Below, piece after piece: positions 8,873-33,252 of a stretch of DNA of 48,853 bases (positions within the stretch are counted from its first letter, which is position 1; each line of letters starts with the position of its first letter). The notes beneath the pieces were generated by a model, which searched no databases, was not told the origin of the DNA, and worked only from the letters and a program-made list of their open reading frames with translations. The translations under genes were made by a program, and so were the position numbers. This stretch comes from a virus: the IMG/VR virus record IMGVR_UViG_3300024323_000010, positions 1 to 48,853 of that record. One strand, given 5' to 3'.

Positions 8873-9078
8873 CCCCTCTCCCACATGCGCGTCTTCACGC
8901 GCTCCACGCCCCGGAGGCGCTTCGTCGAGTTGCCGAGCAGGTCCGGCGTCGGCCAGGACACGGTCTTCGTCGGCGCATCGGGCGCGGCGCGGCCCGTCGC
9001 CGGAAGGTCCGCGCCCTTGCTCGGCGCGGCCTTCTGGTAGGCCCGCTTGTGCGGGCGGAAGCTCGTCGGCGTGGCCAT
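8869..9078 (-). CDS. Small basic protein downstream of the capsid gene
   Basis: A 69-aa protein rich in Lys, Arg and Pro (FRPHKRAYQKAAPSKG; ends KTRMWERG). It lies four bases after the capsid gene and overlaps the next start. No family is recognised. A virion-associated or assembly role is inferred from position only. Confidence 0.5.
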   Translation of the reverse strand: MATPTSFRPHKRAYQKAAPSKGADLPATGRAAPDAPTKTVSWPTPDLLGNSTKRLRGVERVKTRMWERG

Positions 9079-20373: not shown

Positions 20374-20821
20374 CGAGATCCTCCTCGGGCCCAAACTCCG
20401 CGAGCGCGGGGTTGCCTGAAGGCATGAAGCCAAGAATCGAACGCACTGCGTTGTACGCCCAGCCGGCCTGAAATGCCGTCGGCTCCCGCGAGCGCTCCAT
20501 CACCTGGCGGTATTGCTCCGGCTCGAGCTCCTCCCAGCGCTTCATGAAGGGATCGATCGCGAGCGGGCGCACGTCGAGCTCGGGGTGCTTGCGCGTGAAG
20601 AGCAGCATCCCCTGAGCGACGATGCGCGCCGCTTCGTTGTACGTCTCCGCCTTACCCTCGGGCAGTGGCTCGCAGATCCAGGCTTCGAGCGCCGCGCGGG
20701 AGAGCCGCTCGTTCGCGGCTGCCGCAGACTCCCCGCCGAGGATCATTTGGAGCGCGCGCTCCGGCAGAATCCCTTCCGAGGCCCCATCGGCGGAGCTGAA
20801 TGTCGCCTTCACGCGGGTCAT
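20360..20821 (-). CDS. Hypothetical protein
   Basis: A 153-aa acidic protein with PERALQMILGGESAAAANER near residue 20 and AARIVAQGMLLFTRKHPELD near 68. It starts in an ATGA overlap preceded by GGAGGGCGTC, a version of the operon's recurring junction. No family is recognised. Confidence 0.5.
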   Translation of the reverse strand: MTRVKATFSSADGASEGILPERALQMILGGESAAAANERLSRAALEAWICEPLPEGKAETYNEAARIVAQGMLLFTRKHPELDVRPLAIDPFMKRWEELEPEQYRQVMERSREPTAFQAGWAYNAVRSILGFMPSGNPALAEFGPEEDLDGGE

Positions 20822-21048
20822 GACGCCCTCCGGGCGCGGGCGCGCGCGGCCGCCTCGCGCAGTCCGTCCGCGATCGATTCGGCCTGCTCCGGGTCAAAGC
20901 CGATCCACGACACCTCGGTGCCGAACGCGAGGACGACCTTGCCTTCCTTCTCGAGGATGGCGAGCTTGAGGCCGCCGCGGTCGTCGGGGCGCATCTTTCC
21001 GCGCGGGAAATCTCCGGTCGATCCGAGCTTTGGCGGGGGCGACTTCAC
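20818..21048 (-). CDS. Small protein, paralogue of the 21490 gene
   Basis: A 76-aa protein. The core VVLAFGTEVSWIGFDPEQAE followed by SIADGLREAA aligns with VRLTFSQSITWMDLNPEQAA in the gene at 21490-21681. Shared positions are a short strand, W, a hydrophobic residue, D or N-P-E-Q-A, then a helix. Starts at GTG 21048 in a GTGA overlap after GAGGAGCAGCCGTC. The function is unknown. The fold looks like a strand plus a helix. Confidence 0.6.
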   Translation of the reverse strand: MKSPPPKLGSTGDFPRGKMRPDDRGGLKLAILEKEGKVVLAFGTEVSWIGFDPEQAESIADGLREAAARARARRAS

Positions 21049-21473
21049 GACGGCTGCTCCTCATCGGGTGGTTCGATCTTCCAGTCTTCGGGCGAGAGAT
21101 GCATCGCTGCCTGCGCGATGATGCTGGGCTCGATTCCGGCCAGCGAGGGGTACTTCTCGCCGTCGGTGCCCTCCGGGGGCTTGCGCGAGCGCACGTCGCT
21201 CATCTCCTCGGCCTGCCAGTGCTCGGGCGCCATCGCGAGGTGCTGGATGCGGTGCGCGAGCTCCTGGAGCGCGATGCTCGCGGCTCCGAGGAGGCCGATG
21301 CTTTGCGGCTCCGTCTGGCCGGTGACGTGCACGCCGCCCTTCTCGTCCACGACAGCGAGGAGAATCGCATGGCAGCCGAGCTGACGGCGCAGCACGTTTG
21401 CCTCTTTCCAGTGCGGGCCCGAGCCGACGCTATAGAGCTTCTTCTCGGGCGCGATCTTGAGCTTCTTCTTCAT
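21045..21473 (-). CDS. Hypothetical protein
   Basis: A 142-aa protein. ATG 21473 follows GGAGAAGCC. It has a basic start (KKKLKIAPEKKLYSVGSGPH), a beta segment (AILLAVVDEKGGVHVTGQTE) and a helix (ALQELAHRIQHLAMAPEHWQ). The acidic tail ends in EEQPS, part of the repeated junction. No family is recognised. Confidence 0.5.
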   Translation of the reverse strand: MKKKLKIAPEKKLYSVGSGPHWKEANVLRRQLGCHAILLAVVDEKGGVHVTGQTEPQSIGLLGAASIALQELAHRIQHLAMAPEHWQAEEMSDVRSRKPPEGTDGEKYPSLAGIEPSIIAQAAMHLSPEDWKIEPPDEEQPS

Positions 21474-21493
21474 GGCTTCTCCGTGGTGCTCAC
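21470..21493 (-). pseudogene. Seven-codon remnant between two operon junctions
   Basis: GTG 21493 overlaps the stop of the 21490 gene. The frame reads VSTTEKP and stops in an ATGA overlap with ATG 21473. It begins in one copy of the operon junction (GGAGATCCCGTCGTGA) and ends in a second (GGAGAAGCCATGA). It is best read as what is left after recombination between two junctions removed a gene. It could instead be a leader peptide. Confidence 0.45.
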
Positions 21494-21681
21494 GACGGGA
21501 TCTCCGCGTCATCCGGCACCGAATCGACGAAGTGCGCGAGCGCCATCGCAAGCGCGGCGGCCTGCTCCGGATTCAGGTCCATCCACGTGATGCTTTGGCT
21601 GAAGGTGAGCCGTACGGTTTGCGGCCCGGTGCGCATGATCGCTACCGCGAGCTGCGGCTTCTCGGCTGCGGGCGCGGTCAT
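21490..21681 (-). CDS. Small protein, paralogue of the 20818 gene
   Basis: A 63-aa protein. The core VRLTFSQSITWMDLNPEQAA followed by ALAMALAHFV matches the gene at 20818. It starts ATG 21681 in an ATGA overlap after GGAGG and ends in AEIPS, within the repeated junction. The function is unknown. Confidence 0.6.
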   Translation of the reverse strand: MTAPAAEKPQLAVAIMRTGPQTVRLTFSQSITWMDLNPEQAAALAMALAHFVDSVPDDAEIPS

Positions 21682-22358
21682 GAGGACCTCCGGCTCTCTC
21701 TCACGTCGTCGAGCCTCACTTGCATCAGCGCGCGCTCCTCGGCGGTAAGTCTGTTCAAATAGCGACGGAAGCGGTGCGGCGGAGTTTCGTCGCCGAAGAA
21801 CTCGCGGGCGAGCGCCCGCTCGGCGTCGCCATCCACCCAGTCGAGCTCGCGGCCCCACGTGCAGCGGGCGCCGCTCCACGCGGTCGGGCCGCGGCCCGTG
21901 CGCCGGAAGGCGAGGTCCACGCCCGGCTCGAGCTCGACGTCCACGAAGTGGATCCAGTGCAGGCCCGGCAGCGCCTTGAGCGCGCCGACCGTGCGTGAGG
22001 CTCCGGAGTTGCGCAGATCGAGCCGGATCTCGCTGCCATCGACCGAGTACTTCACGCCGTAGACGCAGGCGCGGGTGCTGCCGTTGCGGTCCACGCGGAA
22101 GCTCACCACGACGCCCGAGCGGTCCGGGCGATCCGACTCGCGGAAATTCCCGAGCAGCCACTCGCACTCGAAGGCGCGGCAGGAGAGCGGCAGGCGCTCG
22201 TCGTCGTAGATCGCGCAGCCCGAGGCGCACTGATGCGCGCAGCGCGTTCGGGTGGGCTTGTTGAAGGCGTAGGGCTCGCCGCTCGGGAGGTGGCCGCGTT
22301 CCTTCACCGCGAGGAGCTCGCAGCAGAGCTGGCACTCGCCGCACGCGCGCTCGCTCAT
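21678..22358 (-). CDS. YkgJ-type cysteine cluster protein
   Basis: A 226-aa protein. The N-terminal 80 residues hold CGECQLCC (about 6-13), C-A-H-Q-C near 40, GCAIYDDERLPLSCRAFECEW near 47-67. This spacing of eight or so cysteines is the YkgJ/Fe-S-or-zinc cluster domain found in bacteria and phages. The remainder is a mixed domain with HWIHFVDVELEPGVDLAFRR. The biochemical role of the family is unclear. ATG 22358 is in an ATGA overlap. Confidence 0.75.
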   Translation of the reverse strand: MSERACGECQLCCELLAVKERGHLPSGEPYAFNKPTRTRCAHQCASGCAIYDDERLPLSCRAFECEWLLGNFRESDRPDRSGVVVSFRVDRNGSTRACVYGVKYSVDGSEIRLDLRNSGASRTVGALKALPGLHWIHFVDVELEPGVDLAFRRTGRGPTAWSGARCTWGRELDWVDGDAERALAREFFGDETPPHRFRRYLNRLTAEERALMQVRLDDVRESRRSS

Positions 22359-22654
22359 GACGGGATCCCCTGGAGCTTCGACTCGGTGCGGATCACGCTC
22401 GTGATCTCATCGAGCAGCCCCTCGGGCTCGGTGCAGCGAGCGACGATCATCGCGAGCGCGCTGCAGTGCAGGCGCAGCATCTGGCGGAGCTGGTCGCCCT
22501 CATTGCTCGGCCTCGAGTGGCGTAGCTGCGAGCTGGAGCTGATCTCATCCCCGCCGCCGGTTATCAGGATCAGAATGTCGAGCGGCTCGGGGCTCGCGTC
22601 CTGCACGGCCTTGAACGCGAGCAGCGCGAGTTCGTATCCCTCCTCGGCCTTCAT
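22355..22654 (-). CDS. Helical hypothetical protein
   Basis: A 99-aa protein (EEGYELALLAFKAVQDASPE; MLRLHCSALAMIVARCTEPE). It starts ATG 22654 in an ATGA overlap after GAGGAGAAGCCGTC and ends in GIPS at the next junction. No family is recognised. Confidence 0.5.
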   Translation of the reverse strand: MKAEEGYELALLAFKAVQDASPEPLDILILITGGGDEISSSSQLRHSRPSNEGDQLRQMLRLHCSALAMIVARCTEPEGLLDEITSVIRTESKLQGIPS

Positions 22655-22941
22655 GACGGCTTCTCCTCGCCGGGCTCCGGGCGGCGGCCGGTGTTGGCCG
22701 GGTGGCGCTGGCCCTGGAAATCGACATGGCACACGTTGCACTCGCAGCGCACGCACCAGACCTGAAGGCCGAGCGGCGTGAAGCCGATCTCGAGGTGCGC
22801 CCACTGCCGCGGCGAGACCTGCGGCGGCTTGGCGGGCGTGCACTTCGCGCAGTGAAAGAACGTCGTGATCTCGTTCGTGTTCGGGATTGGCCGCTGCGGC
22901 GGGCGACCGGGCGGCGAGGGGCGGCGACCGAAGCGGCTCAC
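22651..22941 (-). CDS. Small cysteine-rich (zinc-ribbon-like) protein
   Basis: A 96-aa protein starting GTG 22941. Cysteines occur as CAKC near residue 31 and CVRCECNVCHVDF near 63-75, enough for one or two metal sites. The C-terminal GEEKPS is encoded by the repeated operon junction. The function is unknown. Confidence 0.55.
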   Translation of the reverse strand: MSRFGRRPSPPGRPPQRPIPNTNEITTFFHCAKCTPAKPPQVSPRQWAHLEIGFTPLGLQVWCVRCECNVCHVDFQGQRHPANTGRRPEPGEEKPS

Positions 22942-23240
22942 GACGGCTTCTCCGTGCCGGGCGGCGTGACGATCATCCCGCGGCGAGCGCGCCAGCGCGC
23001 CTCGAGCTGGTCGAGCGAGTCCTGGAGCGCGCGGCGCCACTCGGCCGACTCCTCGGGCTTCCACTTGCTGTCGAGCTTTGCGCGCAGCTCGACCGCTTTC
23101 GCGGCGAACTCGAGGACGGCAGCGGTGAGCGTGGGCCCGATCGTGCGCACGCCGGCGTCGCTGATCTCGCGCGTGAGCTGCGTGTAGCGGGCGAGCGCCG
23201 TCTCGATCGGCGTGCGCGGAACCGGCCGCTCGCCGGTCAC
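22938..23240 (-). CDS. Helical hypothetical protein
   Basis: A 100-aa protein starting GTG 23240 in a GTGA overlap. It has long helices (PIETALARYTQLTREISDAG; LEFAAKAVELRAKLDSKWKP). It ends GTEKPS at a junction copy. No family is recognised. Confidence 0.5.
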   Translation of the reverse strand: MTGERPVPRTPIETALARYTQLTREISDAGVRTIGPTLTAAVLEFAAKAVELRAKLDSKWKPEESAEWRRALQDSLDQLEARWRARRGMIVTPPGTEKPS

Positions 23241-25185: not shown

Positions 25186-25475
25186 GAACTTGTCGGAACG
25201 GAGCGGCACTCAAGAGACCTCGCCGCGAGAAACGGACCGGCCAGTGCGGTGTGCGGAGCGACCCGGAGCGCTCCGAGGGCCTGCCAGAGGGATTCAGAGG
25301 CGCTTCGGCGCGTCCTCCCGTGCGGCTTCGCGGAGCAGAGCGAAGCGCGGCACTCCGACGACTCCGGGTGATTTTCCCTTCAAGCCCTGAGCAGCGGTCC
25401 TGACGCGCGCTTCGCACACGGATGCGGGGCGCGCGCGAGCGCCGCTGAGCTCGAAACCCCAAAGGAGAGACCCCA
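25186..25475 (+). promoter_or_regulatory. Long structured leader before the right operon
   Basis: About 280 bases lie between the candidate promoter and the first start. They include a hairpin GCTTCGC-N8-GCGAAGC (about 25322-25345) and end in the repeated AGGAGAGACCCC ribosome-site module. No frame looks coding. It may be a 5' leader with an antitermination or RNA-level function. Confidence 0.35.
25461..25475 (+). promoter_or_regulatory. Repeated AGGAGAGACC ribosome-site module, copy 1
   Basis: AAAGGAGAGACCCCA directly precedes ATG 25476. Near-identical modules precede ATGs at 25939, 26600, 26870, 27486 and, on the minus strand, 33125. Confidence 0.8.
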
Positions 25476-25859
25476 ATGATCCGGATTTACGTGAAAGGCG
25501 AGCCCAAGGCTGCGCAGACCCAGGCGATGGCGCGCGGAATCAAACTCGAGTTCGTCGCGATGTTCGCCGGTCCGCTCACGACGCATTCCGTGTGGCTCGC
25601 CCGGGAGGAGCACGCGGCCGCGGTCGCCGAATGGTTCCGCGAGGGCGGAATCAAGGCGCCCGAGGGCGGCTTTCCTCCGGGCACGCTGCTGATGTTCCGC
25701 CATCTCGAGCGGTACGAACCCTGCGACGCCGAGGTGCGCTGGGCCCAGCGTCTGCCGAGCAAGTGGCCCGGTTACGTGCACACGCTCGATCGCGCCATCG
25801 AAGGCAAGCCTTCGATGTACGTGGTGGAGGAGCCCACCTACCGCTCGTTTTGGATCTGA
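25476..25859 (+). CDS. First gene of the right operon, hypothetical
   Basis: A 127-aa protein, ATG 25476, five bases after AGGAGAGACCCC. The opening IRIYVKGEPKAAQTQAMARG and VWLAREEHAAAVAEWFREGG suggest a small alpha/beta fold. No family is recognised. Confidence 0.6.
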   Translation: MIRIYVKGEPKAAQTQAMARGIKLEFVAMFAGPLTTHSVWLAREEHAAAVAEWFREGGIKAPEGGFPPGTLLMFRHLERYEPCDAEVRWAQRLPSKWPGYVHTLDRAIEGKPSMYVVEEPTYRSFWI

Positions 25860-25923
25860 AGCATTCACCAGCGTTCTCGGCGCGATCCGAGGGCGCTTGC
25901 GAGCGCTTCAAGCCTCGAACCCC

Positions 25924-25938
25924 ACAGGAGAGACCCCG
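25924..25938 (+). promoter_or_regulatory. AGGAGAGACC ribosome-site module, copy 2
   Basis: ACAGGAGAGACCCCG precedes ATG 25939. The match with copy 1 extends upstream: both have a TCGAA word a few bases ahead of CCCCA. Together this makes a repeat of about 30-40 bases. Confidence 0.8.
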
Positions 25939-26097
25939 ATGACGATTCAGGTTGCCCTTGCGGCTGCGCTCCTCGCGAGCGTGGCCATTGCCTTCGAGCT
26001 CGGCCGAGCGATCGGCCGGGTCCAGGTGTCCCGAGAGCTCGGGACGCTGCGCTCCATGCTCACGAGCGGCCGCGCCGTCTGCCGCAACCGGTACTGA
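25939..26097 (+). CDS. 52-residue membrane protein
   Basis: An N-terminal membrane segment (QVALAAALLASVAIAFELG) is followed by a short basic tail. The start is fixed by the ribosome-site module. The function is unknown. Confidence 0.6.
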   Translation: MTIQVALAAALLASVAIAFELGRAIGRVQVSRELGTLRSMLTSGRAVCRNRY

Positions 26098-26102
26098 CCG
26101 CC

Positions 26103-26534
26103 GTGCGCTACGAGGTCTTCGAGAGCGGAAACGGCTTCGGCGTGATGGATCTGCATCACCAGCGCCGACGCGTCCACTGGAGCGCGCGGCGCGACGATGC
26201 GGAGCGCGTCGCTGCCGTCCTGGAAGGCGACCCGAACCGCGACAGCGCAAAGCAGCGGATCGAATATCTCGAGTCCCTGCTCTCGGTCGCCGCGGTCACC
26301 CTGCAAGCGATGCTTGAGGCGTCGCTACGCACCGACGATGCAGCGTGGGCTGCGGGTGTCGAGCGCGCGGGAGTCTTCCGCCCCTGTGACGCCGCGGTGC
26401 GCGAGCTGCGCGCAATCTTCGATGCGGTGCCGGGCACCTCGGCACGCTGCGCAACGTGCCACGAGCCGGCGCTGCTGCTCGGCGATGGCGATGCGCGCTG
26501 CCATCACCACGGCGTAACGACGCCTCTGCCCTGA
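26103..26534 (+). CDS. Hypothetical protein with C-terminal cysteine/histidine motif
   Basis: A 143-aa protein from GTG 26103, five bases after the previous stop and without a clear ribosome site, so translation is probably coupled. It has a helical middle (SAKQRIEYLESLLSVAAVTL). The end carries CATCHEP and CHHHG, a likely zinc site. No family is recognised. Confidence 0.5.
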   Translation: MRYEVFESGNGFGVMDLHHQRRRVHWSARRDDAERVAAVLEGDPNRDSAKQRIEYLESLLSVAAVTLQAMLEASLRTDDAAWAAGVERAGVFRPCDAAVRELRAIFDAVPGTSARCATCHEPALLLGDGDARCHHHGVTTPLP

Positions 26535-26599
26535 CGAGTCCGGTAGGACGAAACCGCGCAGTGGCGCGGTCGGCAGATACCCCTACAGGAGAGACCTTC

Positions 26600-27334
26600 A
26601 TGAAGATTTCGGACGTGAAAATCGGCGGAACCTACGAAACCAAAATCGGCTCGGAGATTGTGCGCGTGCGCGTGCTTGCCGAGCGCAAGCCGCTTCCCTA
26701 CGCCGATACAGTGACGCGCAGCTACGGCAGCCGGCCGACTCGATTCCTTGTGGCGCGCACGGACAACGGCCGCACGCTGCCGAAGACGCGCACGGCCGCG
26801 TCTCTCCGCCCGTGCGAGGCTCGTTTCTGCGGATTCACCCGCTACCCCCACAACAGGAGAGACCCCATCATGGGAGACCGAGCGATCGTGCATTTCTACG
26901 CGCCGAAGGATGGCGCCGAGCTCTCGCCCGCCGTTTACCTGCACTGGAGCGGCAGCGATGTTCAGTCCCTGCTGCGCGAGACCTTCGAGCTCATGCGGAC
27001 GCGCGGCGCGGATCTCAGCTACACCACCGCGCGTTTCATCGGCATCTGCCACACGAAACTCGACGGTAATCTCTCGCTCGGCGTGTGGAATGCGCCCGCG
27101 GACGGCCTCAAGGCTGCGCGCGACCCCAGCTACTCGCACGGAGACGCGGGGGTCTTCATCGTGCATCTAACCTCCCACGGGTGGGAGATCGAGATGCACG
27201 GCGGCTACGGCTTCCATCCGAACATCCCTGCCCGGGACTTGCAGCGGCCGCGCGTCCTGTGGGCCTGGAAGGATCCGGCGCCCGATGCGCCCGGGCTCGC
27301 GAGCGGAGCGCGCGCGCTCCAGGAAGGAAGGTGA
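26600..27334 (+). CDS. In-frame fusion of two small phage proteins across a leader
   Basis: A 244-aa open frame. Residues 1-72 (KISDVKIGGTYETKIGSEIV to AASLRP) look like a stand-alone small beta domain widespread in phages, whose natural end is near SLRP. Residues about 73-90 are translated from an AGGAGAGACCCC leader. Residue 91 is an ATG at 26870 with its own ribosome site, beginning MGDRAIVHFYAPKDGAELSP, a separate 154-aa domain. The stop that should divide them is absent. Either a 244-aa fusion, a separate 154-aa product, or both are made. Confidence 0.65.
   Translation: MKISDVKIGGTYETKIGSEIVRVRVLAERKPLPYADTVTRSYGSRPTRFLVARTDNGRTLPKTRTAASLRPCEARFCGFTRYPHNRRDPIMGDRAIVHFYAPKDGAELSPAVYLHWSGSDVQSLLRETFELMRTRGADLSYTTARFIGICHTKLDGNLSLGVWNAPADGLKAARDPSYSHGDAGVFIVHLTSHGWEIEMHGGYGFHPNIPARDLQRPRVLWAWKDPAPDAPGLASGARALQEGR
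26852..26869 (+). promoter_or_regulatory. Ribosome-site module inside an open frame
   Basis: CAACAGGAGAGACCCCAT precedes the internal ATG 26870 while also being translated as HNRRDP in the upstream frame. Its agreement with the other copies argues that the internal start is used. Confidence 0.65.
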
Positions 27335-27338
27335 CGTC

Positions 27339-27404
27339 ATGTCCGTGTGGGCCGCCATCGCGATTTTTCTGATCGTCTCGGCGACGTTCGCCGATCAGCA
27401 GTAG
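27339..27404 (+). CDS. 21-residue hydrophobic peptide
   Basis: ATG 27339, with GGAAGGAAGG about nine bases upstream, to TAG 27402. The sequence MSVWAAIAIFLIVSATFADQ plus Q is a single membrane segment or a signal-like peptide. It fills the space between two genes. It is plausible as a membrane mini-protein. Confidence 0.5.
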   Translation: MSVWAAIAIFLIVSATFADQQ

Positions 27405-27418
27405 ATTTCTCCAGGGGT

Positions 27419-27471
27419 GTTGCGTGTGCGGCGCGCCGTGAGCGACCATACGGGGCGTCCGCACACGCAAC
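27419..27471 (+). other. 13-base perfect inverted repeat directly before a ribosome site
   Basis: Arms GTTGCGTGTGCGG (27419-27431) and its exact complement (27459-27471) with a 27-base loop. The right arm ends at the first base of the AGGAGAGACC module of the 27486 gene. It could stabilise the mRNA or control access to the start. No T-run follows. Confidence 0.65.
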
Positions 27472-27485
27472 AGGAGAGACCGAGA

Positions 27486-28052
27486 ATGTCCGAACAGGTC
27501 GAAATCGAGACCTTCGACCGCTCCAAATGGGGCGATGGCCCATGGCGGGATGAGCCCGACCGAGTGGACTTCGAGCATGCGGGCCTGCCCTGCCTGCTGC
27601 GGCGCAACTCCATGGGCGCGTGGTGCGGCTATGCCGCGGTGCCGCCCGGGCATCCATGGCACGGGATCGAGTACAACGCCTGCCTCACGCCTGCCGATCT
27701 CCTGCACACGAATGATGAGAACGGCTGGCACGACTGCGAGCGGCGACCCGAGTCGATCGCCCGCGTGCACGGCGGACTCACCTACTCCGGCGCATGCTTC
27801 GGCAACATCTGCCACGTGCCCAAGCCCGGCGAGCCGGCGGACGTGTGGTGGTTTGGCTTCGACTGCGCGCACTTCCTGGACCTGATTCCGCAGATGGTCA
27901 AGTTCCGCGAGGAGCACGACCTGCCGCCGCGCGACAATTTGGATCCGCAGTGGCAGGAGGTCTATCGCGACATGGCCTACGTGCGCGCGGAGACCGAGCG
28001 GCTCGCCGAGCAACTCGCAGCAGTGGCGGCGCCCAGCGCCGTGATGCCATGA
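27486..28052 (+). CDS. Conserved-looking phage protein of unknown function
   Basis: A 188-aa protein. The segment ARVHGGLTYSGACFGNICHV followed by DVWWFGFDCAHFLDLIPQM (about 95-140) recurs in phage accessory proteins. It holds several Cys and His, possibly a metal site. The C-terminus is a helix. It starts with the ribosome-site module. The biochemical function is unknown. Confidence 0.6.
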   Translation: MSEQVEIETFDRSKWGDGPWRDEPDRVDFEHAGLPCLLRRNSMGAWCGYAAVPPGHPWHGIEYNACLTPADLLHTNDENGWHDCERRPESIARVHGGLTYSGACFGNICHVPKPGEPADVWWFGFDCAHFLDLIPQMVKFREEHDLPPRDNLDPQWQEVYRDMAYVRAETERLAEQLAAVAAPSAVMP

Positions 28053-33126: not shown

Positions 33127-33252
33127 TCAGGGTCTCTCCTTCGTGTGATGAAACCGGTAGCTCCACCGCTCGTACACGCGGCCCACATAGAACGAGACCG
33201 CGGCGACGACGATGGCGAACGTGATCTCGAGTCCAGCGATGATGGTGAACAT
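33127..33252 (-). CDS. 41-residue membrane protein
   Basis: ATG 33252 overlaps the previous stop (ATGA) and TGA lies one base before the TerB start. The sequence FTIIAGLEITFAIVVAAVSF is a membrane segment, and the tail RVYERWSYRFHHTKERP is basic. Confidence 0.5.
   Translation of the reverse strand: MFTIIAGLEITFAIVVAAVSFYVGRVYERWSYRFHHTKERP

Follow-up and report, generated by a model that had tools for sequence, protein, structure and literature searches.

The window analysed here is an entire IMG/VR contig, 48,853 bases long and with a GC content of 70%, that derives from an uncultured phage and in which both portal and terminase genes were found. A run of minus-strand genes, hereafter called the left operon, extends from about 23802 to 17160, and most of its genes are joined by -4 overlaps (ATGA or GTGA), twelve of which were counted. 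Single-query searches with the terminase or with gene 21045-21473 retrieved no viral relatives, and relatives of this phage were obtained by using a terminase alignment as the query. The terminase of the nearest relative (contig L010/G001) is 68% identical to that of the window, and those of Arthrobacter phages are only distantly similar (26%). Terminase relatives (L132-L136; 44-48%) are also contained in metagenome-assembled genomes that bear the labels TA06, Rhodospirillales and other proteobacteria, which provide weak hints of the host. In addition, the longest ORF of the window runs antisense to the portal gene. The features of the left operon that are discussed below are listed in Table 1.

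Table 1. Genes and border-word copies in the left operon of the window.
Feature	Position	Strand	Remarks
Bracketed gene	22651-22941	-	candidate inserted cassette; 96-aa cysteine-rich small protein
Gene upstream of bracketed gene	22938-23240	-	100 aa; orthologues in L010 (two copies)
Gene downstream of bracketed gene	22355-22654	-	99 aa; no relatives found
Mini-ORF (MSTTEKP, then stop)	21470-21493	-	7 codons; -4 overlaps link it to 21490-21681 and 21045-21473
Gene paralogous to 21490-21681	20818-21048	-	outside any word pair; WxxxxPEQA motif; weak DUF6324/DUF6907 match
Border word copy 1, GGAGAAGCCGTC	22942-22953	-	before GTG(A) 22941; ends gene 22938-23240 (EKPS)
Border word copy 2, GGAGAAGCCGTC	22655-22666	-	before ATG(A) 22654; ends gene 22651-22941 (EKPS)
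Near copy, GGAGCAGCCGTC	21049-21060	-	11/12; before GTG(A) 21048; ends gene 21045-21473 (EQPS)
Partial copy, GGAGATCCCGTC	21494-21505	-	10/12; before GTG 21493; ends gene 21490-21681 (IPS)
Weak copy, GGGGATCCCGTC	22359-22370	-	9/12; before ATG 22358; ends gene 22355-22654 (IPS)
GGAGAAGCC	21474-21482	-	before ATG 21473, within mini-ORF 21470-21493
GGAGGGCGTC	20822-20831	-	before ATG 20821
AAGCCGTC	part of border word, outside GGAG		conserved spacer

In the frame of the upstream gene, the border word forms the last codons GAG AAG CCG TCR TGA (EKPS), and it contains a Shine-Dalgarno GGAG with a spacing of 8 to the start; the junction table holds the ATGA or GTGA overlap with a GGAG 5-10 nt upstream. 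Judging from these positions, the last codons of one gene double, in each border word, as the Shine-Dalgarno site for the next, predicted translationally coupled gene. The first-pass annotation had described a word recurring at these gene borders, at once a ribosome site and the end of the upstream gene, with the protein tails EKPS, EKPS, EQPS, IPS and IPS. All of its sequences are present, its coordinates are those of the start codons, the position of the word supports the double role, and the five tails are correct. Two of its borders held only in part: the GTGA at 21493 exists but opens only the 7-codon mini-ORF, the gene start being 21473, and a start is found at 22358 but with GGGG instead of GGAG and only a 9/12 match. 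The sequence GGAGAAGCC before 21473 sits between genes, outside their coding sequence. The mini-ORF itself was considered as a deletion scar, a reading that was set aside because such stop-start chains arise too easily.

The two copies at 22654 and 22941 are identical over 12/12 bases and agree at 22 of 25 positions over a longer stretch (22651-22675 and 22938-22962; 88%), the identity reaching upstream past the Shine-Dalgarno site (CCCGGC). They constitute the only adjacent pair in the window and enclose exactly one gene. A C-terminal tail is repeated at adjacent junctions, the upstream protein ending in PPGTEKPS and the bracketed one in EPGEEKPS, and the three proteins encoded around this pair are mutually without similarity. 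No homologue of the bracketed gene was found in L010, the nearest relative. The L010 orthologues of the upstream gene stop about 11 residues before the word-carrying tail, so this tail is not conserved; the family is represented there by a tandem duplicate (L010:668-1194; E 4e-17 between the copies). The next gene of the operon, 21678-22358 (-), encodes a protein of 226 aa that carries CGECQLCC as an N-terminal motif, matches phrog_9155 (E 2e-8) and may be YkgJ-like. Relatives of the paralogues with the PEQA motif were detected in L010, L124, L127, L129 and L130, always within small-gene operons.

Junctions were also compared across phages. Genes were called in 29 phage contigs (1481 junctions, home-made gene calls) and the Che8 genome was added; part of the contigs were chosen blind to the word, and part were picked since a pair had already been seen in them, the window included. 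Two junctions were regarded as similar when the 12 bases preceding their starts differed at no more than one position. In the contigs chosen blind, similar pairs accounted for 3/659 adjacent pairs, 1/5856 non-adjacent pairs and 4/269,089 pairs between contigs; in those picked for a pair already seen, the figures were 13/415 for adjacent versus 7/5751 for non-adjacent pairs. When all contigs and Che8 were combined, 18/1381 pairs matched at distance 1 versus 7/5693 at distances 2-6 (p 2e-8), the latter being distributed as 2/1296, 1/1212, 1/1134, 1/1066 and 2/985. The difference persisted in the blind-chosen contigs plus Che8 (5/731 versus 1/2995; p 0.001) and in the picked contigs after removal of the searched words (10/345 versus 4/1459; p 3e-5). 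With the exception of one case, the proteins flanking the paired borders were dissimilar. Moreover, the curated Che8 genome contains only two perfect pairs, both adjacent, around genes 93 and 82. Shared words cluster at adjacent junctions and therefore enclose one gene each, the pattern expected of insertions between short direct repeats. Among GenBank phages, none was found to have an empty site corresponding to metagenomic contigs G034, G035 or G036. A stronger case of repeated gene ends than the window is the operon at L144 (G033):4600-7100, in which at least five gene ends have the tail AALEPKS, AALERKP or TALEQKP, with up to 24 nt in common.

Filled and empty sites could be recognized among mycobacteriophages. 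Searching with Che8 genes 92-94 yielded mycobacteriophages from several genera whose match is confined to 30-50 nt at a junction; eight of these phages were examined. In Cheoctovirus, Bixzunavirus, Omegavirus and Fromanvirus, the matches reach the GTGA overlap and either end there or just after it, or cross into the downstream gene, and a common border of 35-40 nt precedes different genes in the four genera. Within Bixzunavirus, the junction of Drazdys genes 8 and 9 represents an empty site and MoMoMixon genes 5, 6 and 7 a filled one: MoMoMixon gene 6 is flanked on both sides by GAGGGGGAAGACAAGTGAG, the left flank in Drazdys corresponds to the left border of gene 6 and the right flank to its right border, and GCCGRRGGGGAAGACAAGTGAG is the only stretch common to all of these borders. 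MoMoMixon gene 7 is the same as Drazdys gene 9 (100% over 140 aa), and gene 6 is unrelated. In Dandelion, gene 7 is 99% identical to Drazdys gene 8 and the border is kept, with a different downstream gene whose first 43 aa are identical to those of GigiOuiOui gene 75, which lies at the same border. Among short DNA matches between Che8, LittleE, Sunshine924 and MoMoMixon, 4/17 end at the start codon, compared with 0.38 expected (p 0.0005). The filled and empty sites, together with the occurrence of one border before different genes, show that repeated borders serve as cassette joints in other phages. From these comparisons of sequence, repeated borders in well-sampled phages mark the gain, loss or swap of single genes.

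Precedents for repeat-bracketed insertion have already been published, namely Island3 and LRRHood (PMC3029335). Island3 differs from Brujita (cluster I) by an extra gene, 68, in which the final 18 residues, along with about 50 bp of DNA, are a repeat of the end of the preceding gene (Pope et al. 2011, PMC3029335); its authors inferred recombination between the repeats, as has been proposed for boundary sequences, and considered it the first such event in mycobacteriophages (PMC3029335). As in the window, the tail repeat brackets one gene at adjacent junctions, although for Island3 the empty site is known and the repeat is longer than that of the window (12-25 nt). In LRRHood, a 1.35-kb segment lies between 29-bp direct repeats at gene ends, which are present as a single copy in other C1 phages (PMC3029335). 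Here foreign DNA likewise sits between short direct repeats at gene ends, with both filled and empty sites seen; however, the segment holds four genes rather than one, and the repeat was not described as a ribosome site (PMC3029335). An older model is that of the lambdoid boundary (linker) sequences, in which recombination takes place at short conserved intergenic sequences (PMC3029335, PMC3233612), and both papers note that most mosaic joints show no evident sequence of this kind (PMC3029335, PMC3233612). A short sequence at the borders of unrelated genes is indeed what is found at 22654/22941, but the border in the window is a coding tail and the ribosome site of a -4 overlap.

For a repeated ribosome-site word that involves no recombination, the nearest precedent is provided by the start-associated sequences (SAS) of cluster K mycobacteriophages (PMC3203893). 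Like the window word, SAS/ESAS is a repeated asymmetric AGGAG word before the starts of unrelated small genes (PMC3203893). However, each genome carries 11-19 copies of SAS, which are spread genome-wide along the right arm and are kept between relatives (PMC3203893), whereas the window word has two exact and about three near copies, is located within coding sequence and does not occur in the relative. Its copy number falls short of that of SAS, with two exact copies and one copy with one mismatch in 48.9 kb, and the left-operon word is not conserved in related phages.

SAS illustrates the main rival explanation, which we consider rather unlikely: junctions may have converged on a phage-specific ribosome site without any recombination, the Shine-Dalgarno sequence and spacer being favoured, and -4 overlaps together with GC-rich codons (GAG, AAG, CCG, TCA/TCG) would yield similar tails. 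This would be consistent with the 13-bp SAS, some positions of which are unable to pair with 16S rRNA (PMC3203893), with the plus-strand operon of the window, where a separate and even stronger word, ACAGGAGAGACC, stands in the non-coding leaders of five genes, and with the leaders of L127, L130 and L012, each of which has its own repeated word. On the other hand, a general preference would make distant and neighbouring junctions equally similar, but similarity drops about tenfold from distance 1 to distances 2-6, and the identity at 22654/22941 extends beyond the Shine-Dalgarno site, as described above.

Chance and composition are already unlikely, indeed markedly so, as an explanation for the resemblance. 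It would require that a well-spaced GGAG, favoured codons and a Ser-TGA end had given near-identical 12-mers, which were then picked out by a reader. Several counts are in keeping with it. The bare 12-mer with at most two mismatches has 15 matches in the window versus 9.65 expected, a slight over-representation; exact 12-nt repeats are frequent at 70% GC; and the operon contains 18 exact repeats 12 nt or longer, of which the longest are all intragenic and just 2 have both copies at junctions. A scan of 2.9 million viral contigs for exact matches found the word in 32 contigs and, in 83, a control with the middle codons swapped (GAG CCG AAG TCR versus GAG AAG CCG TCR), which keeps the codons of the word, its Shine-Dalgarno site and its last codon. 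Since the control was commoner, the word was rejected as a universal phage border. When the junctions themselves are compared, however, 4/66 pairs of -4 junctions in the left operon agree at 11 or more of the 12 bases before the start, versus an expectation of 0.14 under column shuffling and 0.29 under codon shuffling (p about 0.0002-0.0004), and one pair matches at 19/21 positions (p about 0.001). Only 2/1013 within-locus pairs reached this similarity in 23 other GC-rich phage loci, and none of 20,000 draws of 12 junctions from the 299 pooled from other phages gave four or more such pairs. The similarity of junctions in the left operon is thus in excess of chance. Tandem duplication of whole genes that subsequently diverged and left like borders is highly improbable, since, despite the paralogues 20818-21048 and 21490-21681 in the operon (E 7e-5) and the two adjacent copies of the upstream gene's family in L010, the three genes that adjoin the identical borders (22938-23240, 22651-22941 and 22355-22654) are not similar.

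One of the 32 word-bearing contigs, L117, has two copies, one on each side of a single 55-codon gene, and its genes are unrelated to those of the window. In one copy the word encodes EKPS, and in the other, at 9077, it follows a TAA stop. Because the word is also found outside coding sequence in L117, it is the nucleotides, and not the peptide, that matter; conservation of the tail as a protein signal was set aside on the basis of this copy and the non-coding sequence before 21473. The bracketed gene of the window and L117:8703-8912 both end in EKPS with the identical word, and both encode small CxxC-type, zinc-ribbon-like proteins.

Further comparison with relatives of the window phage indicated that gene content turns over between them and that the word is not kept. 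Allowing up to two mismatches, no copy of the word was found in G001; among the other relatives there was one match with two mismatches in G002 and none in the remaining five. In G001, the order of the structural block is kept, and only four small-gene families are common with the left operon, in a different order; the operon of L010/G001 is too rearranged for a border comparison. The differences in content and order in G001 and the earlier ends of the L010 orthologues point to gene turnover with remodelled tails. An empty site for 22651-22941, in which the gene would be absent and the border present in a single copy, was not found in the collections searched.

The first-pass annotation had proposed that the operon is built of cassettes exchanged at shared borders. 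As a mechanism, this is borne out in other phages by the adjacency of similar junctions and by the filled and empty pair in mycobacteriophages; in the window its signature is present at 22654/22941 only, and the copies at 21048, 21493 and 22358 do not form adjacent pairs. Extending it to the whole operon goes too far. For the window, therefore, the cassette proposal is plausible in a narrower form, and we lean, a little beyond even, towards reading the identical pair at 22654/22941 as a trace of the gain or exchange of gene 22651-22941. According to this border explanation, the gene would have been gained or exchanged via recombination at short border homology, which would leave one copy of the border on either side of the newcomer. 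The border would supply both a ribosome site and a stop codon, so that the inserted gene could be expressed at once, and the neighbours would end in the same tail. The distant near copies at 21048, 21493 and 22358 might be older, eroded copies or the result of independent ribosome-site selection, by which they can be explained.

A broader proposition, to which we would assign somewhat less than an even chance, is that the gain of single genes by recombination at the translation junction is common in operons of small genes across many tailed phages, 22651-22941 being such a newcomer. The ribosome site and -4 overlap would themselves constitute the short homology, and the newcomer would arrive translationally coupled and leave a duplicated junction. 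How phage genomes come to be mosaics with their joints at gene borders has long been asked, and two models exist: recombination at short boundary sequences, or random joining on which selection then acts. The exchange of single genes without loss of expression would be accounted for by a border that provides the ribosome site, the stop codon and the homology together. If the broader proposition is true, adjacent junction pairs could reveal recent gene gain from sequence alone. Counting the adjacency signature needs no related genomes and is possible for any phage, which makes the share of border-directed gene gain measurable.

Another repeated word, stronger than the first, was observed on the plus strand of the window. 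The word ACAGGAGAGACC precedes five plus-strand genes (25456-27486), at 25461 (with one mismatch), 25924, 26585, 26853 and 27470, and a copy with two mismatches is present at 33131-33142 (-), before 33125. It lies in non-coding leaders, with a hairpin upstream of the word in three of the four leaders that were folded, and looks like a word of the SAS kind. In the leader at 27405-27488 (+), a very stable hairpin of -49.5 kcal/mol (z -6.9) is predicted, in which TTTCTCC pairs with the Shine-Dalgarno GGAGAGA of gene 27486-28052; this leader may possibly act as a translational switch. Within the open frame 26600-27334 (+), the leader word recurs at 26853 and an ATG is present at 26873; the frame probably represents two genes without an intervening stop, or a fusion. 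In addition, repeated leaders of small genes were detected at L130:10413-11210 (64 nt, three copies) and L127:272-3254 (35 nt, five copies), each of which combines a hairpin with a ribosome site and resembles the extended SAS.
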